Below are positions 24,781-54,389 of a stretch of 64,000 nt of DNA, in pieces. The stretch lies in the NCBI RefSeq assembly GCF_014359565.1, contig NZ_JACIZD010000011.1, forward strand, positions 1-64,000. The letters run 5' to 3'. Positions within the stretch are counted from its first letter, which is position 1. Each line of letters begins with the position of its first letter. This DNA is from Immundisolibacter sp. (GTDB taxonomy: Bacteria > Pseudomonadota > Gammaproteobacteria > Immundisolibacterales > Immundisolibacteraceae). The position numbers were made by a program, and so were the translations under genes. Below the pieces are notes generated by a model, which did not search any database, was not told the DNA's origin, and was given only the letters and a program-made list of their open reading frames with translations.

Positions 24781-27163
24781 GCGCCCTTCTCGTCTTGACG
24801 AAGCCTGTGCCCGGCCCCGTTGGGGGCGCGGCATGCCGTGTTCCTATGCCGCCCTCATCCCGTCTTCATAAGGCCTCGGCCCGACCGGGTAGGGGCGACG
24901 CATGCGTCGCCCCTACGGGTCTTAATCCCTTCTTCATAAGGTCTGGGTCCGTTCCCGCTATTATCGAAGGGGCGCTGTACTTGTGCGCGTCTTAATCCCT
25001 TCTTCATAAGGTCTGGGTCCGTTCACGTGGAGCATGGTAAATGATTACTTTCTTTCGTTTCTTAATCCCTTCTTCATAAGGTCTGGGTCCGTTCGATGGA
25101 CTGGGCGGACCCAAGCGGGTGGCGGCGTCTTAATCCCTTCTTCATAAGGTCTGGGTCCGTTCTGGCCCTGCTCGACAACCTCACCCGCGAGCTGAGTCTT
25201 AATCCCTTCTTCATAAGGTCTGGGTCCGTTCTAAAAACCATGACTAAGCAAGAGCTGGCCGCCAGTCTTAATCCCTTCTTCATAAGGTCTGGGTCCGTTC
25301 GCGACCTGCCAGACACGCAAGCAAAGCGCGAGGCGTCTTAATCCCTTCTTCATAAGGTCTGGGTCCGTTCGAAGGCTACAGCAAAGCCATCGCCACGTTT
25401 GCTTCTTAATCCCTTCTTCATAAGGTCTGGGTCCGTTCCCTTTGCGAAGGCTGGACCGCACGCTGCCAAGGGTCTTAATCCCTTCTTCATAAGGTCTGGG
25501 TCCGTTCGCCTCCCTGGTGAACAGGCTCAAGGGTGTCTCAAGGTCTTAATCCCTTCTTCATAAGGTCTGGGTCCGTTCTTGAGAAGAAGGTAGACCGCCG
25601 CAGCCGAAAGGGTCTTAATCCCTTCTTCATAAGGTCTGGGTCCGTTCGGTCTTTGCCATACACCAAATAGCCCCGGACCGAGTCTTAATCCCTTCTTCAT
25701 AAGGTCTGGGTCCGTTCGTTCTCTTGAGTTTCGTATGCACCCTGGGTGTACTGAGTCTTAATCCCTTCTTCATAAGGTCTGGGTCCGTTCTGGTCTTGTT
25801 GCCTAGTGCCTCACGATACTCGGTCTTAATCCCTTCTTCATAAGGTCTGGGTCCGTTCAGTACCGGCCGACGAATAAATTCCCTTCCTCCCGTCTTAATC
25901 CCTTCTTCATAAGGTCTGGGTCCGTTCCGCCAAAGCGGACCAATCGCGGACGCAAACCGCGTCTTAATCCCTTCTTCATAAGGTCTGGGTCCGTTCGAAG
26001 GTTACAGCAAGGCCATCGCCACGTTCGCGTCTTAATCCCTTCTTCATAAGGTCTGGGTCCGTTCGAAACACCATGCGTAACGGAGCTCGCTCCTTGGTCT
26101 TAATCCCTTCTTCATAAGGTCTGGGTCCGTTCTGAAAACGACGTGGAAGGCCTTGACGCGACCGAGGTCTTAATCCCTTCTTCATAAGGTCTGGGTCCGT
26201 TCCTTGGGTTCATCCACAGCCTTGGCTGCTACGCCGTCTTAATCCCTTCTTCATAAGGTCTGGGTCCGTTCGCGAGTGCGTGACAAGTTGTGCGGCTCTA
26301 GCGAGTCTTAATCCCTTCTTCATAAGGTCTGGGTCCGTTCCGGTAGACTTCTCACAGCCGTGGGATATTGGGTCTTAATCCCTTCTTCATAAGGTCTGGG
26401 TCCGTTCTCCTTTACCTTGTTCGGTCAGGGGATTGTCTCGGTCTTAATCCCTTCTTCATAAGGTCTGGGTCCGTTCGCGGCATTCGACGCCATACCCGCC
26501 TAGATTCCGTCTTAATCCCTTCTTCATAAGGTCTGGGTCCGTTCTCACGGGCCTGGACGGGGTATATCTCCGCTGGGTCTTAATCCCTTCTTCATAAGGT
26601 CTGGGTCCGTTCCCCTGATGACCGGCGACGTTCTCATCGTGGTAGGTCTTAATCCCTTCTTCATAAGGTCTGGGTCCGTTCTCAGGATTTGCGAGAGGCC
26701 GCAGAACGACTTGAGGTCTTAATCCCTTCTTCATAAGGTCTGGGTCCGTTCCATCACGTTCAGCGCTTCGTCCATCAACTTCGGTCTTAATCCCTTCTTC
26801 ATAAGGTCTGGGTCCGTTCCCATGCGGCAAGCTCGGCTTCGGGCGTTTCTGCGTCTTAATCCCTTCTTCATAAGGTCTGGGTCCGTTCGCTCGGGCCGGT
26901 GAAGATCGCCGAGGCGCTTCCGTCTTAATCCCTTCTTCATAAGGTCTGGGTCCGTTCGGCTGCGCTCGCCAGGATGGACAAATGAGCGCGTCTTAATCCC
27001 TTCTTCATAAGGTCTGGGTCCGTTCCCTGGCCGACGCCTACGACGCAGCGCAGGCGGCGTCTTAATCCCTTCTTCATAAGGTCTGGGTCCGTTCTATTCT
27101 ACAGAATAAATAGGCAACCAGATATTCGTCTTAATCCCTTCTTCATAAGGTCTGGGTCCGTTC
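24781..27163 (-). CRISPR. CRISPR array, 33 intact 36-base repeats plus two decayed repeats
   Basis: Intact repeats run from 24919-24954 to 27128-27163, separated by 32 spacers of 31-37 bases. Read as transcribed (minus strand), the repeat starts GAACGGACCCAGACC and ends GAAGGGATTAAGAC, so the 8-base crRNA handle would be ATTAAGAC, similar to type I/III handles. Left of the array are a decayed repeat at 24851-24886 (26 of 36 matches) and a more decayed one at about 24781-24816, both in register. Old repeats at the left and cas genes at the right put the leader end at the right. Repeats at 25059 and 25403 have T for G at the first plus-strand base, changing the last handle base. Confidence 0.97.
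24889..24916. repeat. Perfect 28-base palindrome in the oldest spacer position
   Basis: The spacer between the decayed repeat and the first intact repeat is almost entirely a perfect palindrome with arms GTAGGGGCGACGCA and TGCGTCGCCCCTAC. It resembles the REP-like arms seen at 20,925-20,988 and near 2,660. It is either a REP element that landed in the array tail or a structure serving as a terminator for the array transcript. Confidence 0.6.
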
Positions 27164-27539
27164 AGCTCCGTATATTCCCTCCTTTCAGGTCAGTCAGTTG
27201 TGCCGGGGGTTGACGATGGTTCGACCGCCCCGAGGGGTCAGGGGTTGGCGCCAGCACGTCAAGACCCTGCTCCAGAAGGTAAACGGCTTCCGGCAGGGCG
27301 CTGCGGCCGTAGAACACCCAGTCCGGTCGCTGTGGCAGCGGGTACAGCCGCACGTCGTCTTGTGGGGCGATGATGCTGTTGATGGTGGCTACCAGGTGGC
27401 GAATACCGCGGCGCGTGAAGCGCCCGACGAATACCGAGTATTGCACGGCCAGGGCTTGTTTCTTGAGCGCACGGTGCAGGGTCACCAGGCGGCGCGGTTC
27501 GCGAACGTCGTAGGCAATGAGCCAGGTCTGGGTGTTCAT
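27162..27539 (-). CDS. cas2: Cas2, second copy (extended C-terminus)
   Basis: A 125-residue Cas2. The ferredoxin-like start WLIAYDVREPRRL carries the conserved Asp at residue 11, followed by a YSVFVGRFT strand and a DDVRLYPLP strand. The family norm is about 90-100 residues; here about 28 extra residues rich in Pro, Ser and Asn follow LEQGLDVLAP. Its TGA stop (27164-27162) shares two bases with the first CRISPR repeat, so the extension is encoded by the DNA that should act as array leader. It differs strongly from the other Cas2 at 29303. It partners in the Cas1-Cas2 integrase; which Cas1 it binds is unknown. Confidence 0.88.
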   Translation of the reverse strand: MNTQTWLIAYDVREPRRLVTLHRALKKQALAVQYSVFVGRFTRRGIRHLVATINSIIAPQDDVRLYPLPQRPDWVFYGRSALPEAVYLLEQGLDVLAPTPDPSGRSNHRQPPAQLTDLKGGNIRS

Positions 27540-27582: not shown

Positions 27583-28338
27583 TCACAGGCCGAGGCTGAA
27601 CAGGCTGGCGATCAGGCGTCGGCATGTAGCCACCAGGCCCGGCTGCAGGGATCGGTGGTAGATGGCGGCGGCGGCGGCGAGGTTGTCGGCCTGCATGGGC
27701 ACCGGCGCGGTGAGCAGTTTCCCCCGCAACGGCCATTGCAGGAGACTCTGCAAATCGTCCGCCAGATGCCCGGCCGGGCCGAGGCCGGCAAGCTGGTCGG
27801 GCGCCAGTCCAGCGCGCGTGAGCGCCGCTGCGATGTCGGCCCGCAGCAGGCTGTTCAGGCGCTGCTGGCAGCTGTCGGCCTGGGCGCCAAGACGCGCCTG
27901 CACGGCCTGGTGCAGACGCTGACGCAGGCCGTGTGCGCGCAGGACATCCTCGGGCCAGCCCAGCGCCCGGCAGGTGTAGGCGGCGCGGCGATGGTGCTGC
28001 GCCATGAGCCAGGTGTGGTATCGCTGCTCCCAGTCGGGGCGCGCGGCGGCCATTTCCAGGCGCGCGCCGAGGCCCAGGTGATCGGCCGGTACACCGCTGG
28101 CAATGCCGGTGCAGCGGTCATCGAGGTCCAGAAAGGCCACCACCAGGCCCTGCTGGACGCATGCCTGCAAGGCATCGCCGCGCCAGCCGACCGGGCCGCG
28201 GCACAGGATGTAGGACAGGCGGGCGAAGGGGTACCACACGGGTGCCAGATCGCCCGCCGTGACTTGCAGCGCCGGGCCGGCGCGCTCCACGATCAACGTG
28301 CTGCGGCCGTCAAGGTAAAGCGTCTTGCTCGGTCCCAT
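27583..28338 (-). CDS. Cas1-like protein lacking catalytic residues
   Basis: A 251-residue relative of Cas1, shorter than the usual 320-340. The N-terminal beta domain is recognisable (TLYLDGRSTLIVERAG, ARLSYILCRG, then QGLVVAFLD), matching the start of the Cas1 at 28310. The C-terminal helical domain keeps the pattern RLNSLLRADIAAAL, AGLAP and ADDLQSLL. The Glu of the GxEGxAA motif is absent, and the Gly-Phe-Leu-His motif is replaced by GLGPAG; only an Asp (residue 194 or 195) may align. The frame is intact and overlaps cas1 by 29 bases, so it is translated. It may be a structural, non-catalytic Cas1 subunit. A decaying cas1 duplicate is the alternative. Confidence 0.7.
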   Translation of the reverse strand: MGPSKTLYLDGRSTLIVERAGPALQVTAGDLAPVWYPFARLSYILCRGPVGWRGDALQACVQQGLVVAFLDLDDRCTGIASGVPADHLGLGARLEMAAARPDWEQRYHTWLMAQHHRRAAYTCRALGWPEDVLRAHGLRQRLHQAVQARLGAQADSCQQRLNSLLRADIAAALTRAGLAPDQLAGLGPAGHLADDLQSLLQWPLRGKLLTAPVPMQADNLAAAAAIYHRSLQPGLVATCRRLIASLFSLGL

Positions 28339-29299
28339 CGGGGTTCTCGGTCAGGGCGGCTGGACAGGCGGCGCGCGCGGCGGCGGCCAGGCGCCGGCAC
28401 AGGTGGCGCAGTGCCCGACGCTGCGGCGCAGCGAACTGTTCGTAAGCGACGAAGAAGGCCTGCCGGCCGGCCTTGCCCAGGCGGCAGCGACCGGCCTCGG
28501 TGTGGAAGTGATCGGCGCGCAGGGTGCGTTCGGCAAACAGCCGCCACAGCCAGCCATCCAGGCGCGGGCGCAGCGGTTCGATGAGGTCGCTGGCCAGCGA
28601 TTCGCGGCCGAAGGCCAGGCCGTGCAGAAAGCCGATGTACGGGTCCAGCCCGGCGCCGTAGGCGCTGCGCACGGCCTCGAAATGCAGCAGCGTGTAGCCG
28701 AGCGACAGGGCCGCGTTGACAGGATCCGGCGGCGGTCGGCGGCGGCGGGCGGTAAAGCCAAGCGTCGGCGGCATGACCCCGGCCAGGGCGCGAAAGTGGG
28801 CTGCGGCGGCAGCCCCTTCCAGACCGCGCAGCGTGGCCAGGTCGCCGGCCTGGTCCAGCGCCGGCAGCAGGGCGTACACAGTGTCGATGCTTTTGGTCAG
28901 ATGGCGTGACTGATCGGCCCGCTGGCGTCTGACCTGACACAGCAGGCGCCACTGACGGCGCACTTTGTGGGCCAGAAGGCGACGCGCGGTGGCGAGCGTC
29001 CAGGCCGGGTCCTGCGCCAGGCGCATCTGACCGATCCGCACGCGGGCGTCCTGATGGGGACGGCCATGGACGATGGCCACCCGCTCGCCGCTGCGGGGGC
29101 CAAGCAGCAGCACGCCGATGCCGCGCTCGGCCAATGCCCCCAGCGCACTGCTGTCGGTGCGCACGGCGCTGGTGACGACCACCCGCTCGAGCAGCGCCAG
29201 CGGCACGTCCTGCGCCGGGCCGCCGTCGGTGCGCAGACGCAGTCGGCCGGCGTGGTGGGTCACTTCCAGGCCCTTGCGGTCCAGGTACAGGGTGCCCAT
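28310..29299 (-). CDS. cas1: CRISPR-associated integrase Cas1
   Basis: A 329-residue Cas1, the metal-dependent integrase of spacer acquisition. It has the N-terminal beta domain (MGTLYLDRKGLEV) and a helical catalytic domain with all conserved metal ligands: E161 in RGLEGAAAAAHF, H226 in GLDPYIGFLHG and D238 in SLASDLIEPLRP. The PPPDPVNAALSLGYTLL signature is also present. It starts three bases after cas2 at 29303 and overlaps the cas1-like gene downstream. The C-terminal tail after residue 300 is Ala/Arg-rich. Confidence 0.93.
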   Translation of the reverse strand: MGTLYLDRKGLEVTHHAGRLRLRTDGGPAQDVPLALLERVVVTSAVRTDSSALGALAERGIGVLLLGPRSGERVAIVHGRPHQDARVRIGQMRLAQDPAWTLATARRLLAHKVRRQWRLLCQVRRQRADQSRHLTKSIDTVYALLPALDQAGDLATLRGLEGAAAAAHFRALAGVMPPTLGFTARRRRPPPDPVNAALSLGYTLLHFEAVRSAYGAGLDPYIGFLHGLAFGRESLASDLIEPLRPRLDGWLWRLFAERTLRADHFHTEAGRCRLGKAGRQAFFVAYEQFAAPQRRALRHLCRRLAAAARAACPAALTENPDGTEQDALP

Positions 29300-29302: not shown

Positions 29303-29587
29303 TCAGCCGGCGTAGAAAAACGGCGGGTCGACCGCCGGCACGGCGCAACCCAGCGCCACGGTCTGCGCGCGCGGGTCCAGGCGCAGCAGGAAGAAGCGGT
29401 CGCAGCGGCTGTCCAGCAAGGCGGCCATGTCGGCCAGCAGGGCGCCTTTCTCGGCCGGCGTCAGAAAGCACTCGTAGACGGATTTCTGACCGCCGGTGGC
29501 GTAGGCGCGCACCAGATCGAGCGCGGCTTGCAGCCGGCGCGGGCAGGCCACGTCGTAGGCGGCCAGATGCAGGGCACGGTCGGGCAT
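29303..29587 (-). CDS. cas2: Cas2, first copy
   Basis: A 94-residue Cas2 of normal size. LHLAAYDVACPRRL holds the conserved Asp at residue 12, then QKSVYECFLT and a C-terminal RFFLLRLDPRAQ strand. ATG at 29587 has GGGAG six bases upstream and is preferred over the longer frame. Immediately followed by cas1 (three bases). It probably forms the dimer bridging two Cas1 dimers, alone or with the second Cas2 at 27162. Confidence 0.9.
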   Translation of the reverse strand: MPDRALHLAAYDVACPRRLQAALDLVRAYATGGQKSVYECFLTPAEKGALLADMAALLDSRCDRFFLLRLDPRAQTVALGCAVPAVDPPFFYAG

Positions 29588-29697
29588 GGTGGGCTCCCGG
29601 TGGCAGGAAGCCGGTATCGAATCACGAATTCCGGCGGCCGCCCGCTGCGGCAAGCTTGCGGACCCGCAGCACCGGCTGGTCGTTCATCCGGGCCCGG

Positions 29698-30213
29698 TCA
29701 GGCCGGACGCAGCGGGCCGAAATTGCTGTATTGGCCGGCTTCGTGGTGATAAAGCAGCAGCCGTGCGCCGTTGGCGAACTCGGCGCCCACCAGCGCCGCC
29801 ACCACGGCCGGTCCGGCATGAAAATAATGGATGCAGTCGGCGCCGGCTTTCAGGAGTTGCGCTGCGACGTGGCGCAGCTCGCGGTGCAGGTCGGGCATGT
29901 CCTGCGCGGTGATGGCCCGGTCGCGCCGCACCACCAGGATGCGCTCATCGGGAATGGCGGCCAGCGCCGGCTGCTGGCGGCGGAAATTCTCGACGCTGGC
30001 CCGCACGTCCTTGCCGGCCAACAGGTCGACGATCAGGATGGCCGGGCGCTCGCCGGGCTGGCGGCGGATGGCGTTGAACCAGCGCCGTTCGCGCCGACGG
30101 CGGCCGAACACCACATCCCACCAGGTCCACACGATGGGCACCAGCGCCAGCAAGCCCAGCACGACCCCGATGGGGTCCAGCCAGTCGGCGATGAAGGCGC
30201 GCAGCGCGTCCAT
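29698..30213 (-). CDS. Membrane-anchored SAVED-domain protein (predicted cyclic-oligonucleotide effector)
   Basis: A 171-residue protein with one transmembrane helix at about residues 14-32 (IGVVLGLLALVPIVWTWW), a basic RRRRER stretch, and a soluble domain at about 55-165. The end of this domain (DCIHYFHAGPAVVAALVGAE, then LLLYHHEAGQY) has the hallmark of SAVED domains, which sense cyclic oligonucleotides in CBASS and in some type III CRISPR systems. Type III effectors with a membrane helix are thought to permeabilise or depolarise the membrane when activated. It lies three bases after csx16 and upstream of cas2. The SAVED call is by motif reading only; a CARF-like variant is possible. Confidence 0.65.
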   Translation of the reverse strand: MDALRAFIADWLDPIGVVLGLLALVPIVWTWWDVVFGRRRRERRWFNAIRRQPGERPAILIVDLLAGKDVRASVENFRRQQPALAAIPDERILVVRRDRAITAQDMPDLHRELRHVAAQLLKAGADCIHYFHAGPAVVAALVGAEFANGARLLLYHHEAGQYSNFGPLRPA

Positions 30214-30517: not shown

Positions 30518-31753
30518 TCATTTACCGCCCAGCCAGGCTTTCACCAGCAGGGTGTTCTGGTAGTCCTTGTCCTTCTCGGGCTTTTTGGCTTGGCTGGATT
30601 CCTTCCACTGGCCTTTCGCCTCCCGCATTCTGGCTTCCAGCCAGCGAGCCACGGCGATCTTGTCCTCGCCCTGCCAGCGGCCCTGCTTGACGGCGCCGAT
30701 GACCGCCGAAAGTTCAGGTTGATTCTTATCCGGGCGCTGGTCCAGGAACTCGGCGATGGATCGCTCGATGGGACTCATTCTTTCCAGTGCTTCTGCATGC
30801 TCCCGGGCCTCGCGCTGTGCTGCCAGCTCGGCTTGTTGTCGCGCCTCGTGTTCGATCCGCTCTCTTTCGCGACGCTGTTCTGCCTGCCGATCCCGTGTCA
30901 TGGCGCCGTACCCCACTGCCGTCTTGGCGCCAAAGCCGAGCCATTCGAAGGCGTGTTCGAAGGCTGCGGTGAGCAGCCTCTGCCACTGCGGCTTGCCATC
31001 GGCGTCGTTTTCGAGCAGCGCCGGCGCCAGGCGACCCAGGTGTGCCCTGTCGCAGATGACGTGAAAGCTGAAGTCCGAGCCCGGCGGCACGGTCAGGAAA
31101 CTGATGGGTGTGGGCTGGCCGGAGTCGTGGGGAGTGACGCTGTCTCCTGACTTGCGCTCCGGTTTTTGCTGGTAGTAGTGCGACTGGTGCGGGGTCATGA
31201 TTTCGACCAATAGGCTGTCGCCGGCGATCCGGGGGATCACGTCCCAGAAGCTCAGCGCGCCGCGCACGTGGTCTGAGTCGCTGCCAGACGCTACGGGGCC
31301 AAACAGCACGTCGCACATTGACAGCGCGACAACCTTTTTCTGTATCACCACGGAAAACGGCTTGTCGTCATCGGGCCGCCAGCCGGCTGCGTCACCCCAA
31401 TCGCCGCTGGCCAGCTCCCGCGCCGCCTGGCGCAGCCCGCCCTTGACGCCGGAGCCCGGAAGATACGGCAGGCCATAGGGATTCAGGAAGGCAAACCCGT
31501 TTTCCAGCGGGTGTTCGTTGCCAAGGCCGGTGGTGAAGGGCGCGGTAGCTCTGGCATCCAGGCACAGTCCTTCGGCGGCTGTAACCATGTCGAACAGTCG
31601 TTGCTGTCGGCTTCCCAGCGCGCTCATGGATGCGCGATCGGAGGCAGTCAGGCGGGTCACCTTCTTCCAGGCTTCGCGCGCGGCAGAGTCGTTCTTGTTC
31701 CACAGCTCCGGCAAGCGCTGTTGACTGATTAGCTGGGCAATGGTTGCGTCCAT
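30518..31753 (-). pseudogene. cmr6: Cmr6, type III-B RAMP subunit, 5' end probably removed by the prophage
   Basis: The remaining 411 codons carry the Cmr6 signature: TGLGNEHPLENGFAFLNPYG, then LPYLPGSGVKGGLRQAAREL, HDSGQPTPISFLTVPPGSDF and the glycine-rich GFGAKTAVGYG. A helical C-terminal extension follows. Cmr6 caps the crRNA-bound Cmr complex. The frame stays open for 54 codons upstream of the ATG at 31753, up to a TAG at 31916-31918, and that stretch (SRAATREDQEREVTTRAAKG and onward) looks like the missing N-terminal part. Prophage sequence begins right after. Genes cmr1-cmr5 are not on this side. A functional shortened protein from the internal ATG cannot be excluded. Confidence 0.8.
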
Positions 31754-31989: not shown

Positions 31990-32766
31990 TCACCAGTTCA
32001 TCACTGCCAGCTCGTAGCGGGGTGCCTTCTTGGTGGCCGCTGATCGGCCGATGGTGTACCTGGTGGTGAGTCGGCGTTGGCGGAATCCGGCGAACACTTC
32101 CCGCATGTCGGGGTGGTCGTTGATTGTCAGCAGTGCGCGGCCCTTGAGGCTCCTAAGCGTCCGCGCCAGGGCTTGGTATTGGTCGAGGCCGAACGGGACG
32201 CCGTAGCCCTCGGTTTGCCAGTACGGCGGGTCACAGAAGAAGAACGTGCCGGGCCGATCATAACGGGCAACGCACGCATCCCAGGGCAGGTGCTCGATGG
32301 TGACGCGAGCCAGGCGCAGGTGCGCCGCGCTCAGATCCTCTTCGAGCCGCAGCAGGTTGATGCGGGGCGGGCTGCCGGCGTCGGTGCCGAAGGTCTGGCC
32401 GGATACCTTGGCGCCGAAGCTCGTCTTCTGAAGGAAGAGGAACCGCGCAGCGCGCTGGATATCCGTCAGCGTGGCCGGCGCGCTGGCCAGCAGCCGTTCG
32501 AATTCCTCGCGTGCCACCAGTTGCCAGCGGAACTGGCGGACGAACTCGTCCAGGTGATGCTTCACCACGCGGTACAGGGTCACCAGTTCGCCGTTGATAT
32601 CGTTGAGCACTTCGACCTTGGCGGGCTCGGACCGCAGGAACAGCATGGCTGCCGCACCCGCGAAGGGCTCGACGTATGTCGTGTGGTCCGAATCGAAAAG
32701 CTCCATCAGCTGCGGCGCGAGGCGGCTCTTGCCGCCTGGCCATGGAATCAATGTGCAGGTCTTCAC
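31990..32766 (-). CDS. dam: DNA adenine methylase (Dam, D12 class)
   Basis: A 258-residue N6-adenine methyltransferase. The SAM-binding motif is PWPGGKSRLAP near residue 8 followed by YVEPFAGAAAMLF near 34, and the catalytic motif is FFFCDPPYW (DPPY) near 178. Length is close to the family norm. GTG at 32766 is chosen because the homology starts at once after it (KTCTLIPWPGGK). Many Mu-like phages place DNA-modification genes at this end of the genome (as mom in Mu) to protect their DNA from restriction. Last gene of the late block. Confidence 0.85.
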   Translation of the reverse strand: MKTCTLIPWPGGKSRLAPQLMELFDSDHTTYVEPFAGAAAMLFLRSEPAKVEVLNDINGELVTLYRVVKHHLDEFVRQFRWQLVAREEFERLLASAPATLTDIQRAARFLFLQKTSFGAKVSGQTFGTDAGSPPRINLLRLEEDLSAAHLRLARVTIEHLPWDACVARYDRPGTFFFCDPPYWQTEGYGVPFGLDQYQALARTLRSLKGRALLTINDHPDMREVFAGFRQRRLTTRYTIGRSAATKKAPRYELAVMNW

Positions 32767-32908
32767 GCGATCACACCTTTTGGTTCTGAGGGCACCTAGA
32801 CTTGCCCGGCTCTCGAGAGCAGCAGGGCCTAGGCCAATGCCACGCGGCGGATCGCGTGTGTTGCGGCGGCGGGCCGTCCGCTTGCCGGCGGCGGCCCGTC
32901 GCCCTGTC

Positions 32909-33376
32909 TTACGCCGGCGGGATGCACCCCCTGCGCAGCAGCTGCGCACCCAGCGCGCCCAGGGCGGCGCCGATGAGGTGGGCGGGCCAGGCAATGCCGG
33001 CGTAGGCGGGGCCGAGTGTGGCGAAGATGGCTTGCGAGCCTAGCCAGGCCAGTGCCACGGCGCCGGCGGGGCAACCCATCAGTCGGCCGTGGGGGCGCAC
33101 TGTGAGGTACGCGGCCAGGGCTGCGGCGGCGGCTCCGCTGGCGCCGATGACGGGCCGGGCGAGCAGGCTCGCGGCGATGGCGTTGGAGGCCAGTGCAGCA
33201 GCGGCGAGCAGGACGACAGCGCGGCGCGCGCCAAGGGTGGTGGAAATGGACGGCCAGCACGCGGCCAGCATGAGCAGATTGGCGGCAAGGTGCAGGCTAT
33301 CGTGATGATGAAACACGCCGACGCGCACAACAGCTTCGCGCACATCTGTGATGCAAGCCAGCACCGCAGCCGCCAA
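32909..33376 (-). CDS. Rhomboid-like intramembrane serine protease
   Basis: About 155 residues, nearly all hydrophobic helices (about five or six segments). Features of rhomboids are visible: the HDSLHLAANLLML helix with the His and Asn of the oxyanion region, the nucleophile motif GASGAAAAAL, and a late helix with His in AWPAHLIGAALGALGA. It therefore has a plausible Ser-His dyad. The start is unclear: TTG at 33376 is the first codon after the upstream stop, with GTG at 33364 as an alternative. It sits between a DUF2793 virion protein and dam in the late transcript, an unusual cargo for a Mu-like phage. Confidence 0.6.
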   Translation of the reverse strand: MAAAVLACITDVREAVVRVGVFHHHDSLHLAANLLMLAACWPSISTTLGARRAVVLLAAAALASNAIAASLLARPVIGASGAAAAALAAYLTVRPHGRLMGCPAGAVALAWLGSQAIFATLGPAYAGIAWPAHLIGAALGALGAQLLRRGCIPPA

Positions 33377-33377
33377 T

Positions 33378-33737
33378 TCAGACGGCCACGCCGGCGGACC
33401 AGGCGCCGGCCCGGAACACGCTGAGCTTTTGCTCGTCCTCGATGTGCGCCAGCGTGCCGGTGCGCAGGGGGCCGGAGAATATCCACGCCGCGCCATCCCA
33501 CACCGTGGCTTCGTTTTCGTGGCCGGCCCAGGCCCCTGTAGCGGGGGCGGCGGGGATGTAGGTGTCGCCGGTGGCGGGGGAGCCTGGCGGGGCGGTTAGG
33601 TCGCGATCCTTGGCCGACAGGTGCAGGCCAAACCGGCCGATGCGCAGGATGTTGTCGTTCATCTCCGCGGACCAGCCGGACTCGCCGAGGGACCAGCCGT
33701 ATTTAAGGCCGCTGCGGGGTTCGGTGCTGGATGGCAT
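33378..33737 (-). CDS. DUF2793 phage protein
   Basis: A 119-residue protein with the DUF2793 pattern: SAKDRDLTAPPGSPATGDTY, then GAWAGHENEATVWDGAAWIF and the closing KLSVFRAGAW. DUF2793 modules are found at the ends of tail tip or fibre proteins and next to them, and are thought to be part of the tail tip. Starts 180 bases after the tail-tip gene; the gap between them (33738-33919) shows no gene. Confidence 0.75.
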   Translation of the reverse strand: MPSSTEPRSGLKYGWSLGESGWSAEMNDNILRIGRFGLHLSAKDRDLTAPPGSPATGDTYIPAAPATGAWAGHENEATVWDGAAWIFSGPLRTGTLAHIEDEQKLSVFRAGAWSAGVAV

Positions 33738-33919
33738 GTTGGGCTCCTGGTTGGGGGGATGGGGTTATGGGCGGGGGCGACGGTCGGACGGCCGGGGTTG
33801 CCGTGGCCGCTGGGCGGCGGCGCGATGATGTGGCAGGGGCACGGGGCGGTGTTCGGACTGCCTGTGCGGCTGCTGGCCTGCGTGGCGGGCCGGGCAATGG
33901 TGGAAGTGGTAGCAGCGCG

Positions 33920-36900
33920 TCACGGGCCGCCCCAGTAGTTGCCCCACTGGTAGCCCCAGCCGGCGCGGTCCACGGTGATGTTGTGTTTCTGATGGCTGAC
34001 CAGGCCGGCGCGGACGGACTCGAGCTCGGCGCGGATGCGGCCGTTGAGGCGAGTTGCTTGCGTCCCCTGGATGTTCCAGCGGAACGCCTGGAACTTGGAG
34101 ACATTGCCGCCCCCGGCGTTGTTGCGTAATCCGACACCGCCGGGGCCAGCGTGCGCGGAGTCTGTTGCCGATGCCACTTGTTGCCCGTCCACGAACGCTG
34201 TCAGGGCCGTGCCGGCGGCCCGGAACCGGATCGTCTTCGATGTGCCGCGCGCCCACGAGATGTTGGCCTGTGCTAGTTGGGTATAGGCGCCGCCGACGCG
34301 TTTGAAAATCCTGATGTTTTGGGATGGGGCAGCGCCAGAATCATCGTAGAGCGCAAGCAGGTAGTAGTTGCTGCTATTGACGAATCGCAGCACCAAGCCT
34401 CCGTCGCCGGCGGTGTTAATGTCCGCCTCGATCACCACGTCCGTATAGGACGTGCCGTTGCGAATGAACTTTGCTTGGGTGCCTCCCGTCGCGGTCAGCT
34501 CGCCGCTGGCGATGGCCCACGTGGCATTCGCATCGGCGACCTGCGTGTATTGCGACGTGGAGTCTGTGTCGAAGGTGTCTTCGTTGTACGTAAAGCCCGG
34601 CGACCCAGGCACCGTCAACCCGCTGTCCGCCTCCTCGTCCGTCCACGTGTAGCTGCTGCCCGTCAGCCCCGTCTCGGTGCGCAGCAGGGTGTCGGTCTCG
34701 CCGTACAGGCGCAGGGTGTAGGTGGTGGCGGCCTCGGGGCCGATGCTGGCCTGCAGTGTGTCGATGAGCTGATCGGCCTGGAGCAGGCGGTCGCGGTGCG
34801 CCCAGCCGAAGGCGATGAGCGGGTTGCCGGCCAGGGCCACGGGATAGGAGACCCCGTTGATCTTCACGTTGCCGGGCGGGTAGGGCAACACGGCGCGGCC
34901 GACGACGTCCAGCGACATGGCGCTGGCGGCGCCGATGTCGAGCTGCTGGCTGCTGGTGTTGGTGAGCAGCTTGATAGCCAGCGTCTCGCCGGCGGTGTAC
35001 TCGGTGAGGTCGACCGCCGCATTGTCCTGGTAGAACCAGATCCGCGAGCCCGCGGCATGCTGGCTCGGTACGGTATCTGCGCAGCCTCGGGCGAGCGTGA
35101 CGGTGCCAGCCGCAGGGTCGATTGCATCGACGCGGACGATCTCGTCGTCCCACAGCGCGGCCGAACCGACTGCGACTTCGTCCAGGCGCGTGGCGCCGCT
35201 GAGGGTGAAGGCGGTATCGGGCCAAGAAGCCACCTCGACCACCAATGCGCTCGGACACCAGTCGCCGTCCACGGTTTCGATGTATCCCGCTCCGGCGTCG
35301 ACCATGGCTGTGTAATTGGTGCTGACGGCAGGATCGGCGGCGACGGTCGCCAGGTAGCCGACGTCGGCCGGCAGCACTTCCAGGTCGGCGCGGCTCAGTG
35401 CGCTGACCACCTCGATGTACGGCGCCTCGAAGGCGGCCTGCGCGGTGATCGGCGCCGGCGTCTGCGACGGGTCGGTATCGACGCCCGGCTCGACCTGCGC
35501 GAACGCCGTGGCGGGCAGCGAGTAGATATCCTGCGTGGCCTTGAGGCGGATGGCGCCGCTCTTGAGGCTGCCGGTCTCCTTTTCGCCCACGATGCAGACC
35601 ATGTCGGCGATGCCCCGCTTGGGGGCCTGCAGGCGGAAGTACGTGTTCGGGCGCCAGGCAAAGGGCTTGCGCGTGCAGACCAGGTCGAGGGCACGCGTGG
35701 GCGTGGCGGTGGCCTGCAGCTCGCGCTGCGCCACGCGGGCGGCGAGGCTGGCGGTCGGGATCTCTGGATAGTCGATGGTCTGGTGGATGGTGCCGAAGGC
35801 CGCGATGAGCGCCCGCGCCTGCACCGGCGGGGTGGTGATGGTCTCCTTCTTCTCGGGATCGAAATACTTGACCGACACGCTGTTGACGGCGTTGTCGAGT
35901 GTGGACGGCAGCTCCTTGAAGTCCAGGATGTCGTCGTCGGTCAGGATCGGCAGATCGCCCAGCACGTAGTCGCCGCGGGCCAGGTCCAGATGCCACTGGC
36001 CAGTGATCGGGTCGCGGCTGAAGGCGCCGTCGATCAGCTTGCTGATGCGCTGCTCGAACTCCTCGACGCTCTCGTTGGCCGGGTCGCGCGTGGTGCAGAT
36101 GCCGAAGCCTTCGGCGTACAACGTGTCGGCGGCGGCGGCGAGGCTGGCGTCGTTGATGTTGGCCGTTGGCTCGCGGCCGAGGTCCGAATTTGTGCGGGCG
36201 AAGTACAGGATGTGGGCGGGGTTCATCGAAAAATCAATGTCTGGCAAACCAGTCGCCAGCACACCATCAACATGCATGTAATACAGCCCGGTCGCGCCAT
36301 TCCTGCTTAGTGAAACAAAGTGCCACTCTCCAACACCGATGGGTTCTCTGTCGCCGCTTATGTCTACAATCACTGGCGGACCGGAATCATTTATAAAAAA
36401 CGACAGCTTGTCGCCCAAAACACGCCAGTCTGTATCTCTATGAGGAATACTGAGTGGCCCTGCACTGAGGATAACATTGCCATACATATATGTGGATAAT
36501 GTATCAAGATTGATCCACGCCTCCAGTGTGAACGTTTGGCCCAGGTCTTCCTCGCCAGGCGTAAAATCGATCTGAACCCGATCATCTATCCCATCGAAAT
36601 AACACGATGATCCCCCGAATTTGCTTTGCGCCGTGCTAAGTGCGGCGCCGCCGTAGGCGGTGACTGTGTGGCCCTTGGCATCTATGATCGTCGTGCTGCC
36701 GTTATCGCCATTGAACAACAGACAAAACAATACGTTGGCCCAATAGGGATCTGCGCCGCTGGTATCAAATTCATCCGTGGGCACTGCATAGGTTTCAGTG
36801 GTATAGCGTGCGACGCCCTTGGTCACCCGAATCGAATCAATAGACCCTTTAAACCAGCTCTGATTTACAAAATAGGTACCTGTCCATTCTTCGGCGCAGC

Positions 36901-37411
36901 CAATATTCAGCCATCCCGTGGAATAGGCCAGCCAGCCGTAAGGGTTGCTGACGGGCGCTCGCTGCATGATTTTTCCGACCGGCGCCGTTTCCGGATACCA
37001 GCACGGGTCGGTATCCCACCCCTGCCTGATCTTGCGAATCTTGTAGCTGGCCTTCTGCGGGTAGGGGTTCATGGCGCCGTATTTGCCGCCCTTGAAAACC
37101 AGCGTGGCCAGGCCGCGCCAGGCGGGCACCTGCGCGCCGAGGTTGGCCAGCAGGTAGGCGTTGGGCGCCTGCGTGGCCTCGCCGAACATCACGTCCACGT
37201 CGCTGACGATGCCGCCCTGTTCCTCGGTGCCGCCCCACAGCTTGGGCTTATTGATGTTGATGGTGCCGCTGGCGGTCAGATTGCCCTGCCAGGCCGTCCG
37301 ATCGCCGCCGCGAAACTCCAGGAACGCGTCGATCGGCCCCTTGCACAGGCCGGCGTGATACAGCAGCTTGTACCAGTAGCCGACGGTCTGCTTCTTACTG
37401 CTGCCGCCCAT
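33920..37411 (-). CDS. Tail tip / host-specificity protein (J-like) with lectin-like domains
   Basis: A 1163-residue tail-tip protein. Residues about 1-140 and 420-780 resemble the J-like/GTA-like central tail hub (NPYPQKASYKIRKIRQGWD; YAEGFGICTTRDPANESVEE; LALDLVCTRKPF-like region). Residues about 205-400 are a LamG/concanavalin-like jellyroll (FGGSSCYFDGIDDRVQIDF, TLEAWINLDTL) and about 960-1125 a second beta-sandwich (VVIEADINTAGDGGLVLRF, TIRFRAAGTALTAFVDGQQV). The two inserts, above all the first, are visibly lower in GC than the hub. They probably bind the receptor glycan. It overlaps the upstream gene by 17 bases. Confidence 0.8.
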   Translation of the reverse strand: MGGSSKKQTVGYWYKLLYHAGLCKGPIDAFLEFRGGDRTAWQGNLTASGTININKPKLWGGTEEQGGIVSDVDVMFGEATQAPNAYLLANLGAQVPAWRGLATLVFKGGKYGAMNPYPQKASYKIRKIRQGWDTDPCWYPETAPVGKIMQRAPVSNPYGWLAYSTGWLNIGCAEEWTGTYFVNQSWFKGSIDSIRVTKGVARYTTETYAVPTDEFDTSGADPYWANVLFCLLFNGDNGSTTIIDAKGHTVTAYGGAALSTAQSKFGGSSCYFDGIDDRVQIDFTPGEEDLGQTFTLEAWINLDTLSTYMYGNVILSAGPLSIPHRDTDWRVLGDKLSFFINDSGPPVIVDISGDREPIGVGEWHFVSLSRNGATGLYYMHVDGVLATGLPDIDFSMNPAHILYFARTNSDLGREPTANINDASLAAAADTLYAEGFGICTTRDPANESVEEFEQRISKLIDGAFSRDPITGQWHLDLARGDYVLGDLPILTDDDILDFKELPSTLDNAVNSVSVKYFDPEKKETITTPPVQARALIAAFGTIHQTIDYPEIPTASLAARVAQRELQATATPTRALDLVCTRKPFAWRPNTYFRLQAPKRGIADMVCIVGEKETGSLKSGAIRLKATQDIYSLPATAFAQVEPGVDTDPSQTPAPITAQAAFEAPYIEVVSALSRADLEVLPADVGYLATVAADPAVSTNYTAMVDAGAGYIETVDGDWCPSALVVEVASWPDTAFTLSGATRLDEVAVGSAALWDDEIVRVDAIDPAAGTVTLARGCADTVPSQHAAGSRIWFYQDNAAVDLTEYTAGETLAIKLLTNTSSQQLDIGAASAMSLDVVGRAVLPYPPGNVKINGVSYPVALAGNPLIAFGWAHRDRLLQADQLIDTLQASIGPEAATTYTLRLYGETDTLLRTETGLTGSSYTWTDEEADSGLTVPGSPGFTYNEDTFDTDSTSQYTQVADANATWAIASGELTATGGTQAKFIRNGTSYTDVVIEADINTAGDGGLVLRFVNSSNYYLLALYDDSGAAPSQNIRIFKRVGGAYTQLAQANISWARGTSKTIRFRAAGTALTAFVDGQQVASATDSAHAGPGGVGLRNNAGGGNVSKFQAFRWNIQGTQATRLNGRIRAELESVRAGLVSHQKHNITVDRAGWGYQWGNYWGGP

Positions 37412-37631
37412 CGGCCGCCTCCTTTGTCGCGCACTCCCGCGCCCAGGCCACCAGCGCCAGCGCCAGGGCGTCGCCGGTGGCCTCCATTACCTCGGCCGCA
37501 ATGCCGTTGCGCACGAAGTCGGACCAATCCAGACCGTGCGCCGCGAACCATGCCCGTGCACCGCCACGGCAAAACCCCGGCCGGCTGGAGAATCCGGGGA
37601 TGCTGAACAAGTGGCGCGTGGTGATGATCAC
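37395..37631 (-). CDS. Small phage tail-module protein
   Basis: A 78-residue protein starting at GTG 37631, which overlaps the upstream stop (GTGA). It reads HLFSIPGFSSRPGFCRGGAR, then WFAAHGLDWSDFVRNGI. Proteins with this pattern occur just upstream of tail-tip genes in Mu-like phages; function unknown, possibly an assembly factor of the tail tip. Confidence 0.6.
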   Translation of the reverse strand: MIITTRHLFSIPGFSSRPGFCRGGARAWFAAHGLDWSDFVRNGIAAEVMEATGDALALALVAWARECATKEAADGRQQ

Positions 37632-38050
37632 TTCTTGCCGCCCTTCTTCTTGATCTTCTGCGTGCCCATGCCCTTCCAGGCCAGCACGAATTGATCGTCG
37701 ATCCACACCGTGCCGAACACGTCCCGCACGGCGAGGCCGTCTTCGGTATTGGGCGCCGTGGACTGCATCGGCTTGGGCGCCTCGATCTTGGGCCGCATGA
37801 AAAACGCCACCGCCGCCATCACGATGCCCAGCACCAGGCCCGCCACCCACCAGGTAATCGCCTTTGCCGGCTGGTCCGGCGGCAGCGGATGCAGGATGCC
37901 GACCACCACCAGCCGCACCAGGTGCAGCACCGTGCCCAACGTGCCCAGGCACCAGACGATGATCCGCGCCTGCCGACCGGCGCGGGTGTCCATCCACCAG
38001 TAGCGCAGGCGCCACGACCACACGTACCAGAGCCTGCGCATCAGGTCCAT
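37628..38050 (-). CDS. Phage tail-module membrane protein
   Basis: About 140 residues starting at ATG 38050 (an alternative ATG is at 38041). Two hydrophobic helices at about 28-50 and 65-83 (IIVWCLGTLGTVLHLVRLVV and TWWVAGLVLGIVMAAVAFFM) precede a soluble end with VRDVFGTVWIDDQFVLAWKG and a lysine-rich tail. It overlaps its neighbours on both sides. Role unknown; by position it probably assists tail-tip assembly. Confidence 0.6.
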   Translation of the reverse strand: MDLMRRLWYVWSWRLRYWWMDTRAGRQARIIVWCLGTLGTVLHLVRLVVVGILHPLPPDQPAKAITWWVAGLVLGIVMAAVAFFMRPKIEAPKPMQSTAPNTEDGLAVRDVFGTVWIDDQFVLAWKGMGTQKIKKKGGKK

Positions 38051-38892
38051 GACATCGGCGTCTCGGTTGGATCCTTGCGCGGCTTGTAGATGGCGCCGCC
38101 ATAGTTGATGGTGTTGCCCCGCGCCACGCAGGCGGCCCAGGTCTGCTGGCAGCCGGGCCGGGCAATGACGGCCAGTCCAACTGCCAGATCGGCCGCGCCG
38201 TAAAGCAGCCTCAGATTGCCCAGGCTGTGCTCCATGATCGAGCGGCGCTCCACCAGGCCATCGAGGCGCGTCCATTCGATCCATCCGCCATCCAGCGCCA
38301 GCGGCGCATCGGCAAACGCGCTGGATCCCACATCCAAACCGTTCACTGCCGACAGCGTGGTGGACACCTCGAACGCATCGAGCGCCAGATTGCACCCGCG
38401 CAATCCGGTCGAATACACCGTCTTCCAGCAGGCGCGCTGCCACTTTGGCCCCTGGTTGCGGGCCTTGGCGATGGCCGGGCTCTGTTCGCAGGTCAGCGTC
38501 AGCTCGATGTCGGTGAAGCTCGGCTGTGTGACGATGCCGGACCATTCCACGGCCGGCGGATCGGTGTCGCCGTAATGCGTGGCCAGGCACGTCACGGTAA
38601 TCGAATCGCTCGGGATATACGGGTGCCAGTTGTCGCCCAGCGCCTGCGTGGCCGGGAATTCCGGCGCGTTCGGGTCGCGCAGATAGGCCAGCGTGATAGT
38701 GAGCTTGTCTTTGGCCCGCTCGGCGGTCTGTTTTATCTCGCCGCGGTCGATGGGCGCGGCCAGATAGGTATTGCCGCCGATGACCAGATTGCGGTCGGCA
38801 TTGCAAAAGCGCCACACCACGCTTTGCCGCTGGAAAACAAACAGTCGCACCGGGCGGCCGAGGAAGCGGGATAGCTCGAACGTCTCAAACAT
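38041..38892 (-). CDS. BR0599/DUF2163-family phage tail protein
   Basis: A 283-residue protein with the BR0599 pattern: FVFQRQSVVWRFCNADRNL at the start, GNTYLAAPIDRGEIKQT, then KWQRACWKTVYSTGLRGCNL in the middle and GGAIYKPRKDPTET at the end. Members lie between the distal tail protein and the tip protein in B3/D3112-like phages and gene transfer agents and belong to the tail tip complex. Confidence 0.8.
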   Translation of the reverse strand: MFETFELSRFLGRPVRLFVFQRQSVVWRFCNADRNLVIGGNTYLAAPIDRGEIKQTAERAKDKLTITLAYLRDPNAPEFPATQALGDNWHPYIPSDSITVTCLATHYGDTDPPAVEWSGIVTQPSFTDIELTLTCEQSPAIAKARNQGPKWQRACWKTVYSTGLRGCNLALDAFEVSTTLSAVNGLDVGSSAFADAPLALDGGWIEWTRLDGLVERRSIMEHSLGNLRLLYGAADLAVGLAVIARPGCQQTWAACVARGNTINYGGAIYKPRKDPTETPMSWT

Positions 38893-40087
38893 CCGGCACC
38901 ACCGCTTGCCAGCCGAGCGTCACGGTCGCCACGCCGTCCTGGTCGGTAATGTGGTCGATTTCCACCTCGTCACTGGCCAGCGTGGAGAGCGCCATGAACG
39001 ATATCCGCCGGATGGCGCCCGCCGCGATGGCACTGCCGGATAGCGAGGCGCTCAACGTCAGCGTCTCGGTCGCGCCGGCCTCCACGGCATTGTCGATGCG
39101 CCGGTAATACACCGTGCCGTCGAGCAGCTCGATGCGCACGTCTTTGCGGTTCGGCTGATTCTTGCCAAACAGCGTATAGCCCGCCCACTCGATGCTCAGA
39201 CTCGTGCTGCCGCCGGCAAGGGTGGCCGCCGGCAGCAGGTCCGCCGCGTAGCTCGGGATCCAGATCGGCACCCGCCGACCGTGCAGCGTGTACAGCAGCG
39301 AGCGCAGCCAGGTGTGCTCCGCCCGCCCGAACAGCTTGTACGCCATGCGCTGCGTGCGCAGGCCGCGGCCGGCCAGGTCGTGCGCCAACGGCAGCGCGGC
39401 GTCGTAATCCACCAGCTCAATCAGCCGCGACGTGCTGGCGGTCGGGTCGTCGCTTTCCTCCGGCGGCATGTCCATCACCGGATGGCCCAGATACAGCGTC
39501 GGGCTGGCCAGCTCCGGCCAGTCGCACGGCTCGATCAGGTCAAACGTGATGCTGCGCCGGCCGACGTCATCCGAGCGCAGCCGTTCCTCGGCGCCGTCCT
39601 GCACCCGCGCGCGGCGCAGCGGATATAGCCGCGCGATGGGGCCGTGCGCGGTCAGCGTCGGATCCGTCAGCGCCAGATAGCCGGCCGCGATGGCGGCGAT
39701 ATTGACCACCTCCCAGGCGTTGACGGCATCGACTATCAGCGCCTGCCCACCGACCACGAAATCGAACCCCGCCGTCGCGCACGGCACGATGTCGATGCCG
39801 GACGCCAGCGTGCCGACCAGGCGCTGGCCGTCCGGCCAGATGGGCAGCAGCCAGGCGCCGCCGTAGCCCGCCAGCAGCATGTCGGCCGTGCGCCGCTCCT
39901 GGCCGCCGGCCAGCAGCTCGAAGGCCAGCCGGCGGCGCGGCGCAATGCGCAGGCCGCGGTGCTGGGTGTTGCCGCTGGCGTTGGCCTGCAGCACGTCGGT
40001 CAGCCAGGCCAGCGTCTCCTGCACGCCGTTGGACCAATCCGGCGAGATTGGCCACACGCGCGCGCCGGCGACGGTAAAGCTACCCAC
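38885..40087 (-). CDS. Phage tail protein (distal-tail type)
   Basis: A 400-residue beta-rich protein lying between tape measure and the BR0599 protein, the place of the distal tail/initiator protein of siphophage-like tails. Visible stretches: WSNGVQETLAWLTDVLQ near the start, APRRRLAFELLAGGQERR, TFDLIEPCDWP and SLSIEWAGYTLFGKNQPNR. I recognise it as a protein of Mu-like phages with flexible tails but not to a named family. Confidence 0.65.
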   Translation of the reverse strand: MGSFTVAGARVWPISPDWSNGVQETLAWLTDVLQANASGNTQHRGLRIAPRRRLAFELLAGGQERRTADMLLAGYGGAWLLPIWPDGQRLVGTLASGIDIVPCATAGFDFVVGGQALIVDAVNAWEVVNIAAIAAGYLALTDPTLTAHGPIARLYPLRRARVQDGAEERLRSDDVGRRSITFDLIEPCDWPELASPTLYLGHPVMDMPPEESDDPTASTSRLIELVDYDAALPLAHDLAGRGLRTQRMAYKLFGRAEHTWLRSLLYTLHGRRVPIWIPSYAADLLPAATLAGGSTSLSIEWAGYTLFGKNQPNRKDVRIELLDGTVYYRRIDNAVEAGATETLTLSASLSGSAIAAGAIRRISFMALSTLASDEVEIDHITDQDGVATVTLGWQAVVPDV

Positions 40088-40090
40088 GGC

Positions 40091-42865
40091 TCACCACTGC
40101 GCCTGGATGGCCGAGCCGTTCTGGCCGGCGGTGACCACGATGGCCTTTTCCAGCGCCGGGTGCTGCGCCAGGCGCTGGGCGAGCTGGTCCTCGTTCTGCA
40201 CCACATAGACGCGCATGTTGTTCTTGTTGACGGCCTGCATCGGCGGGCCATCGGACAGCGCCATGCGCGGCTCGGCCGCGGTGATCAGGCCGCCGTCGGC
40301 AAATCCGCGCCAGTCCGCCACGGCGGCCATGCCGCGCCGGTTGAAGTCGTCCAGGAAGCTCAGCGCGCCGGGCTGCGTGGCGCTGGCCGCGCGCACCATG
40401 TATTCGCGGTCCGATGCCCAGATCGGCACGCTGTCGCTGGTGCGCGTGCCGGGGCCGCGGATCTGGCCACCGTCGGCATAGCCCAGCACGGCCGAGCTGA
40501 TGATGGCGCTGATGTTCGCGAACTGCGCCACTACAGACGCCGTCTCGGCGAAGGACCAGGGGAAGCCCTTTTCCTGTGCCTTGGCGAGCGAGATCCCGAG
40601 CGACATAACCGCCTGCGCCAGCGCAAAGCCCTTGCTGATCGCGAACAGCGCCCGGTAGGCGGTGCTCTGCTCGCCGGCGGCGCGGCGGGCCATGTCGGCC
40701 ATGGCGCCGAAGGCCTCTTCGCCGCGCGTCAGGGTGAGCTGGTTCTGGGCGTCGCCGAGCTCGGCGAGCTTGGCCTGGTACTGCTTCTTGCTCTCCAGCT
40801 CCCAGGCATCCCATTCCGCATTGAGATCCGCTTCGCGGCGCCGGGAGTCGGCCAGCTGTTCAAGCCGCTGGTCATACCACTCCTGCAAACGCTCCGATGC
40901 CTGGTCGAGCCGGAACTGCTCGCTGTCGATGCCGCCGATTTCCGGTGCCAATCCCGCGAACGATGGCGGCGGCGCGAAGGACTTTTCGACGACTTTGCCG
41001 ACCTGCGCGTTGTATTCGTCGGCCGTTATCAGGCCCGCCTTGAGCGCGGCGTTGAGCTTTTCGATGCTCTCGATGGCGGTATCCACCGCCACTTCGGCCG
41101 GCGTGCGCAGCGACTCGCGCAGGCTGTCGTAGGCCTTTTCGGTTTCCTCGGCCGCGCGCTTGCGTTGCTGCTCGGCCAGCTGGTCGGCGCGCTTGGCGTC
41201 CAGCACCTTGGCCTGGTCGATCAGCTGCTGCTGGGTGGCGGCGCTGGCCGCCGCCAGGCCGCCGTTTTCGATCTCATAGCGGACGCGGGCTTCCTCGCTC
41301 GCGCGCTTCTGGCCGTCCTCGACCGCGCCCAGCAGGGCCACCTGCTTTTCCAGGTTGGCCAGCTCGCGCTGGGCGGCGTCCTCCGCCTGCTGCGCGGCGG
41401 TCTTGGCAGTGCTGCCGCGCGCGGGTTTCGCCACGGCCGGCGCCGCGCGGGCGCGGGCGGCATCCTCCTGCGCCTTGATCTCCGGCTCGGTCTTGTTGGC
41501 GGCCAAGCCGGTCTTGCGGATGTCGGCGATCTCCTGCTCCAGCTTCTGCTGGCGGTCCAGGTTCGCCAGGCGCAGGCGCTCCCACTCCTCCTCCGCCTTT
41601 TCCTGCGCCTGTTTCTTGGCGATGGCGGCGTCGGTGCGGGCCTGCGAATCGGCCTGCAGGCGGGCGACTTGCCCCTGCACCAGCACCTGCGCCTTGAGGC
41701 TGTCCACCTCGGCCTGGGCGGCGTCGATGCGCTGCTGAGCGTCGCCGGGGAAGTTGGCGCGACTGGCCTGCAGGAAATCCAGCCGTGCCTGGGCGGCGCG
41801 CAGATCAGCCTGCGTGTTGTCCTTACCGACTTCCTTGAGGCCATCCCACGCGGACGCGATCGAGTTGCGCACCGCGCGCCAGGCCTTTTCGAGCGAGCCG
41901 GCGCGTTCTTCCGCTTCCTTCACGCGTTGCTCGTGCACGTTGGCGAACGCTTCGATGGCCACCTGCGCGGCCTCCTGCGTGCGGCCCTGCTTTTCCAGCG
42001 CCGTCACCTGGTCATAGATGGAGATCGTCAGGAAGTGGTACTGGCTGTTCAGCTCCTCCATCACCTTGGTCGGCGCGGTCGCCAGCTTGATGATCTTGCT
42101 GGTGGTGTCCTCGATGCTGTCGCCGGTCAGCTTGGCCAGGGCCACCGCCGCGCGGGTGGCGTCTTCCAGGGCCGCGCCGGTGATCTTGCCGCTGGCCGCC
42201 AGTGCCGCGGTGGCGGTCTCGGCGTCGCCGTAGGCATTGCTGGCCTCGCCCACGCGGTCGGCGAGGTCGGATAGCTGCCCGGCGGTCAGGCCCACCGTGT
42301 TGCCGGTGCTGATCAGCGCCTGCTCGTAGCGCTGCATTTCCCGGTAGCCGTCGAACAGCGCCTTGCCGATCAACGCGAAGGCGCCAGCACCGGCCGTGAC
42401 GGCGACCACCGTAGGCGAGATGAGACCCACGAGCGCACGCAGCGCAGGCGTGACGCCGCCGAAGGAATCGCGCAGCTGCCCGCCCTGCTGGATTGCCACC
42501 ATGAACACCGACTGCCCGGATGCCAGGCCGGTCACGATGTCCGTCACCTGCGCCGGCAGCTGGCGCATGGCCTGCTGGTACTGACCGGCGGTCAGGCCGG
42601 CGCGACGCATCGCGTTGGCGCCGTTGGCCACGGCCGGCGCCAGCTTGCCGTGCGCGGCGGCGGCGGCAGTGGCGGCGCCGGCTTCCTTGTTGAGGCTGCT
42701 GGCCGCGTTGTCCGCCGCGCCGGCGGTGGCGTTCAGATCCTGCGCAGTGTCGCGACCGGTCGCGCCCAGCTTGTCGATGGCGGCGTCGACCTGCTGCACC
42801 TGCTTGGCCGCATCCGCCATGTCGGCGCGGATGCGCAGCGCGAGTTCGAGGTTACGGTCTGACAC
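40091..42865 (-). CDS. Tail length tape measure protein
   Basis: A 924-residue lambda GpH-like tape measure. The N-terminal part is helical, then a hydrophobic region (PTVVAVTAGAGAFALIGKAL) and the tape-measure signature (RYEQALISTGNTVGLTAGQL; ALAASGKITGAALEDATRAA). A long Ala/Glu/Gln-rich coiled coil covers about 330-620. The C-terminal third contains a Gly/Ala-rich hydrophobic segment and a GYADGGQIRGPGTRTSDSVP motif common at the end of such proteins. Its length sets tail length. It lies after the chaperone genes as in lambda. Confidence 0.88.
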   Translation of the reverse strand: MSDRNLELALRIRADMADAAKQVQQVDAAIDKLGATGRDTAQDLNATAGAADNAASSLNKEAGAATAAAAAHGKLAPAVANGANAMRRAGLTAGQYQQAMRQLPAQVTDIVTGLASGQSVFMVAIQQGGQLRDSFGGVTPALRALVGLISPTVVAVTAGAGAFALIGKALFDGYREMQRYEQALISTGNTVGLTAGQLSDLADRVGEASNAYGDAETATAALAASGKITGAALEDATRAAVALAKLTGDSIEDTTSKIIKLATAPTKVMEELNSQYHFLTISIYDQVTALEKQGRTQEAAQVAIEAFANVHEQRVKEAEERAGSLEKAWRAVRNSIASAWDGLKEVGKDNTQADLRAAQARLDFLQASRANFPGDAQQRIDAAQAEVDSLKAQVLVQGQVARLQADSQARTDAAIAKKQAQEKAEEEWERLRLANLDRQQKLEQEIADIRKTGLAANKTEPEIKAQEDAARARAAPAVAKPARGSTAKTAAQQAEDAAQRELANLEKQVALLGAVEDGQKRASEEARVRYEIENGGLAAASAATQQQLIDQAKVLDAKRADQLAEQQRKRAAEETEKAYDSLRESLRTPAEVAVDTAIESIEKLNAALKAGLITADEYNAQVGKVVEKSFAPPPSFAGLAPEIGGIDSEQFRLDQASERLQEWYDQRLEQLADSRRREADLNAEWDAWELESKKQYQAKLAELGDAQNQLTLTRGEEAFGAMADMARRAAGEQSTAYRALFAISKGFALAQAVMSLGISLAKAQEKGFPWSFAETASVVAQFANISAIISSAVLGYADGGQIRGPGTRTSDSVPIWASDREYMVRAASATQPGALSFLDDFNRRGMAAVADWRGFADGGLITAAEPRMALSDGPPMQAVNKNNMRVYVVQNEDQLAQRLAQHPALEKAIVVTAGQNGSAIQAQW

Positions 42866-42868
42866 GGG

Positions 42869-43578: not shown

Positions 43579-43584
43579 GGCGCC

Positions 43585-44340: not shown

Positions 44341-44346
44341 GGCTTC

Positions 44347-45520: not shown

Positions 45521-45532
45521 GGATCAGGCCGA

Positions 45533-45778: not shown

Positions 45779-45810
45779 GGGCTGCTCCTCGCAGGGGGGG
45801 GTGGCGCCGC

Positions 45811-53845: not shown

Positions 53846-53846
53846 G

Positions 53847-54386: not shown

Positions 54387-54389
54387 GGC

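Follow-up and report, generated by a model that had tools for sequence, protein, structure and literature searches.

An array associated with a type III-B CRISPR system in Immundisolibacter sp. holds two spacers, at 25371-25402 and 25997-26028 of the window (the whole stretch of 64,000 nucleotides that was analysed), which were probably gained in two separate acquisitions from the same conserved-gene site in two related but diverged mobile elements. According to this explanation, one array would have taken the same 32-33 nt site twice, and the source would be one conserved protein-coding gene present in both of the related, diverged elements, which were probably phages. Spacer 7 would be the older copy and spacer 16 the newer one, nearer to the leader and the cas genes, and eight unrelated acquisitions would have taken place in between. 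The gene would run along the plus strand (EGYSKAIATFA), and the crRNAs, read from the minus strand, would then be antisense to its mRNA, which is the orientation needed for type III interference. The two-source origin is the best explanation that we can offer for the pair, and it is built on the invariance of the repeats and on the codon phase of the differences, not on protospacers. The array and the pair are laid out as follows.

24853..24886, minus strand, degenerate repeat (8/34 mismatches), which marks the left end as the old (trailer) one
24920..27163, minus strand, CRISPR array with 33 repeats (36 nt) and 32 spacers (31-37 nt)
25371..25402, minus strand (crRNA strand), spacer 7 of 32 counted from the left; its plus strand reads EGYSKAIATF(A)
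25403, no strand assigned, junction base at repeat position 1, where T replaces the usual G in this and one other of the 33 repeats
25997..26028, minus strand (crRNA strand), spacer 16 of 32, 29/32 identical to spacer 7; its plus strand reads EGYSKAIATF(A)
27162..27539, minus strand, cas2, whose reading frame runs into the first repeat

The two spacers have the same register and the same length, and the positions and the match of 29 in 32 given for them in the original prediction are exact. When all 496 spacer pairs of the array were compared on both strands, only spacers 7 and 16 were alike, the other 495 pairs scoring 0 or less, and a simple binomial model puts the probability of such a pair by chance at about 7e-10. 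Eight unrelated spacers separate them, and the spacers flanking the one show no relation to those flanking the other. The differences are found at positions 6, 15 and 30 (GGC/GGT, AAA/AAG and TTT/TTC), and translation of both spacers reproduced the earlier statement that all three are silent, each of them being a third codon position of EGYSKAIATF in plus-strand frame 1. Moreover, the base after each spacer, T at 25403 and G at 26029, completes GCT or GCG, both encoding alanine (EGYSKAIATFA), and this would be a fourth silent difference if the junction base came from the source DNA; alternatively, the T at 25403 is a plain mutation of the repeat that has nothing to do with the source. Repeat position 1 is G in 31/33 repeats and T in 2/33, namely at 25059 (spacer 2) and 25403 (spacer 7), in repeats that are otherwise identical, and the T is perhaps a junction base derived from the protospacer.

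In simulations with three random changes, at least one open frame had only silent differences in 16% of the trials with transitions and in 7.7% with uniform changes, and the corresponding values for four changes over 33 nt were 5.7% and 2.0%. Because this chance level is 8-16% for three changes, silence alone is no proof of a coding origin, and the all-silent pattern of three changes is by itself weak evidence for it. The same chance level would suit a duplication of a repeat-spacer unit within the array, the copies of which then mutated, with no second element involved, and the duplication of array units is a known phenomenon. However, no flanking spacer was copied along, as the neighbours of spacers 7 and 16 are unrelated, and all four differences, the junction included, share one codon phase. 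Furthermore, the repeats have 33 perfect 34-nt cores, and 35 of the 36 positions are unchanged in all 33 repeats, whereas the two spacers differ at 3 of their 32 (Fisher p=1.8e-5), an argument that is strong but not final since recombination between repeats could homogenise them and hide changes. The repeats of a copied unit should have changed too, yet they are invariant, and a duplication followed by mutation is thus very unlikely. The pair could also come from one element, or from one phage population with two alleles or paralogous copies, if both spacers were acquired close in time. The sequence does not separate two lineages from two copies, and the identical registers and lengths would fit such a source; the eight spacers in between, however, mean that the acquisitions were not consecutive, and we consider this origin rather unlikely. 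Two acquisitions are what the repeat invariance makes most likely, and the earlier claim that one site was sampled from two diverged elements stands as far as the homologous pair and the two events are concerned, while the searches brought to light neither a protospacer nor a gene family nor two lineages.

Scored with the codon usage of the resident prophage or of host genes, plus frame 1 is the best of the six frames for both spacers, with the caveat that the source phages may differ in codon use from the reference genes. A strand classifier, which was right for 1973/2200 33-mers of known strand and for 1353/1394 at a margin >3, placed both spacers of the pair on the plus strand with margins of 7.4 and 9.1. 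Judged by codon usage, the coding strand of the targeted site is probably the plus strand, and it follows that the minus-strand crRNAs would be antisense to the mRNA. The original prediction had pointed to stop codons in the matching frame of the reverse strand. These stops are present, but they do not settle the matter: both spacers read ANVAMALL-stop in that frame, and none of the three differences, the TAG/TAA change included, alters this reading. Such a stop rules out only a site in the interior of a minus-strand gene, because the frame could be the 3' end of the gene. In that case the gene would lie on the minus strand, and type III RNA recognition could make no use of the crRNAs, which would be sense. 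Besides the silent differences, the array as a whole would agree with such a gene, as it has no antisense bias (17/32 spacers on the plus strand by the classifier; 10/14 at a margin >3, the pair included). On the other side, the codon-usage scores favour the plus strand for both spacers, a site of 32 nt should, a priori, seldom include a stop codon, and the ANVAMALL-stop pattern has 0 matches in the viral contigs, although the plus-strand peptide is absent there too, so that a minus-strand gene is, in our judgement, most unlikely. The antisense orientation is thus probable for spacers 7 and 16 and no property of the whole array; what had been predicted of antisense crRNAs probably holds, by codon usage, for the pair but not as a rule (17/32), and working targeting by them is putative.

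With up to 3 mismatches allowed, the genome has no second array built on this repeat. Since the degenerate repeat lies at the left and cas2 runs into the right end, transcription of the array most likely proceeds on the minus strand from a leader at the right end, which would make spacer 16 younger than spacer 7. The stop codon of cas2 (27162-27539) is formed with the first repeat, so any leader would lie within the 3' coding region of cas2, and a genome of the same genus (G002) has the same layout from cas2 to the repeat, with the stop codon adjoining the first repeat. At 24887-24918, after the degenerate repeat, there is a long perfect palindrome (GTAGGGGCGACGCATGCGTCGCCCCTAC) instead of an ordinary spacer. 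In addition, a closely similar repeat occurs in a 15-repeat array on a 25.7 kb plasmid of Methylocaldum szegediense (L226 5935-6953), where repeat position 1 is G in 15/15 repeats and the 12 kb of sequence read carry no annotated cas gene. The genes beyond the right end of the array in Immundisolibacter are these.

27583..28338, minus strand, diverged second cas1-like gene (PADLOC 'diverged variant, second in the loci')
28310..29299, minus strand, cas1
29303..29653, minus strand, second cas2 (part 29303-29587 searched)
29698..30213, minus strand, SAVED/CARF protein with 2 TMs (name of the PADLOC model)
30518..31753, minus strand, cmr6
31990..63670 and on to about contig 67270 (outside the window), no strand assigned, Mu-like prophage genes between cmr6 and cmr5
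contig 67516-67926, minus strand, cmr5

The locus is type III-B. Cas10b, Cmr3, Cmr4, Cmr5 and Cmr6 are all found on the same contig as the array, and the Cas10 is of the Cmr2 kind, with TIGR02577 over its cut-off at contig 70498-72459 and matches to the Cas10b models as well. On the minus strand of the contig the order is cas10b, cmr3, cmr4, cmr5, the Mu-like prophage, cmr6, the SAVED/CARF gene, cas2, cas1, the diverged cas1 and cas2. As in type III-B systems (Cas10b/Cmr1-6), Cas10b and Cmr3, Cmr4, Cmr5 and Cmr6 are accompanied by Cas1, Cas2 and an adjacent array, while Cas6 is encoded elsewhere, on another contig of the genome. The main differences are that the operon is split by the Mu-like prophage, that there are an extra diverged cas1 and a second cas2, and that no match to Cmr1 was found in the cut-off 268-aa stretch at the end of the contig, which ends at 73988. 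The place in G002 that matches this end has a Cmr1-like gene, and upstream of Cas10 that genome carries genes for Cmr1-like, Csx1 and CARF proteins and Cas6. The two cas1 genes (one of them diverged, its best model being 'second in the loci') and two cas2 genes stand together at 27583-29653.

The prophage contains repressor-like, MuA-like (rve), MuB-like (AAA), head and tail genes, where the MuA and MuB labels are our interpretation of the Pfam hits and the gene order. The effector operon is interrupted by it: cas10-cmr3-cmr4-cmr5 are parted from cmr6, the adaptation genes and the array, which now lie ~35 kb from the upstream effector genes, and cmr5 and cmr6 both still match their families. 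Operon continuity is variable across III-B loci, and the split thus bears on the function of the system and not on its class; RNA-guided interference in a strain with such a split operon is something that we can only infer. When the prophage ends were sought as TG/CA termini flanked by a 5-bp target duplication, no more than two candidates came up, both of them poor, and the G002 assembly breaks at the point matching the prophage insertion.

BLAST of both spacers against phages and plasmids gave only partial matches (E 0.3 or worse), and the search that the original prediction had suggested, with spacers and peptide against phage and plasmid databases for two lineages of one gene family, ended without a whole-site match. 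In viral_contigs, the pattern EGY[S-like]KAIATF had 0 matches, the shorter EGY.KAIA occurred at 12 loci, none with the whole site, the D/E form of the motif was met at 9 loci, which are DUF1804 and one other protein, and a pattern with free third positions had 1 match, taken as chance. Pattern scans of genome_contigs (84,980 genomes) gave 0 matches in one case and 3 in the other, the latter taken as chance and belonging by title to MAGs of Verrucomicrobia, Rhodospirillaceae and Bacteroidales. Protospacers of the pair were also sought in the strain's own genome, in its family (7 genomes) and in the class sample (369 genomes, at up to 3 mismatches), each time with the array as the only match.

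DUF1804, a small-terminase-type family of Mu-like phages, is the only family that recurs among the weak matches, at one homologous motif, DGY[NS]KAI. A site within a DUF1804 gene would explain why both spacers have low-scoring BLAST matches in frame on this motif, in a Curvibacter phage and two Serratia plasmid prophages (best 22/23). However, a comparison of 71 distinct DUF1804 sequences showed D at position 1 in 71/71, A or S at position 9 in 71/71 and F at position 10 in 0/71, where the spacers have E, T and F, and the best whole-site match among these sequences has 8 mismatches; such a site is very unlikely. As the exact target family, DUF1804 (PF08822) was rejected, failing at three positions, two of them invariant-class in 71/71 sequences. 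The family is absent from the strain's own genome and from its 14 control genomes, and 7/369 genomes of the class sample reach the search threshold, 5 of them over the family cut-off. The peptide EGYSKAIALF is found, at 5 mismatches of 32, in a lone hypothetical protein (L013) for which neither viral_contigs nor phages yielded a further relative, and EGYSKAIAAR in a protein of L010 that, from its motifs, is presumably a portal.

The whole array, compared with phages, plasmids and 20 relatives, had no convincing protospacer for any spacer, and the only strong plasmid match is itself an array, whose repeat resembles this one. A further comparison set the 32 spacers against the masked window and 190 fetched loci (191 sequences in all, with 5 array-holding loci left out). 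It gave 7 best matches of 5 to 8 mismatches, three of which (L013 twice, L043) are not independent, since the motif search led to their loci or to related ones; shuffled spacers had none at up to 8 mismatches. Among the remaining matches are spacer 27 against L110 with 7 mismatches (a locus fetched by the array search), spacer 28 against L170 with 7 and spacer 4 against L145 with 8.

Even on the assumption that a single 40 kb genome with a 1-in-16 motif supplied all 32 spacers, fewer than 0.1 coincidences of start and strand would be expected, so the sampled site was probably a preferred or selected one. If the two-source origin is true, the array has taken up a single site of a conserved gene on two occasions, from two diverged elements and with identical boundaries, and the pair would be a concrete place for asking whether spacer choice in type III-B is site-biased. 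A primed re-acquisition, in which the older crRNA on a diverged transcript directs the re-taking of the same segment, appears to us very improbable; the older crRNA would have to pair with the transcript of the relative despite three or four silent mismatches, and the adaptation genes (two cas1, two cas2) would have to be guided to exactly the same segment, the identical ends being its trace.

In the III-B system of Marinomonas mediterranea, as outlined in PMC5576922, spacers are acquired in either orientation and only the antisense ones interfere, and the mixed orientation is similar to that seen here, where 17/32 spacers look antisense. That system is described there with an RT-Cas1, whereas Pfam finds only Cas1 domains in the cas1 and cas1-like ORFs of our locus. 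Arrays of Sulfolobus islandicus, in the account given in PMC6452263, hold several spacers against one viral region and record ancestral and diverged versions of the virus, much as proposed here; those spacers were matched to known viruses (PMC6452263), whereas the present pair is known from its array alone. A literature search of partial coverage found no paper on silent-site spacer pairs within one array. Repeated sampling of one virus region is already familiar, and the pair is a good example of it and no new kind of system.

Two further observations concern the resident prophage. Spacer 31 (27026-27058) matches the region of its portal gene (50887-50919) at 26/33 positions, with 7 mismatches, which is GC-rich and possibly a chance match. 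In addition, an IMG/VR contig (L116, from metagenome 3300002856) encodes a portal 93% identical to that of the resident prophage, and thus this metagenome may hold phages of this host.
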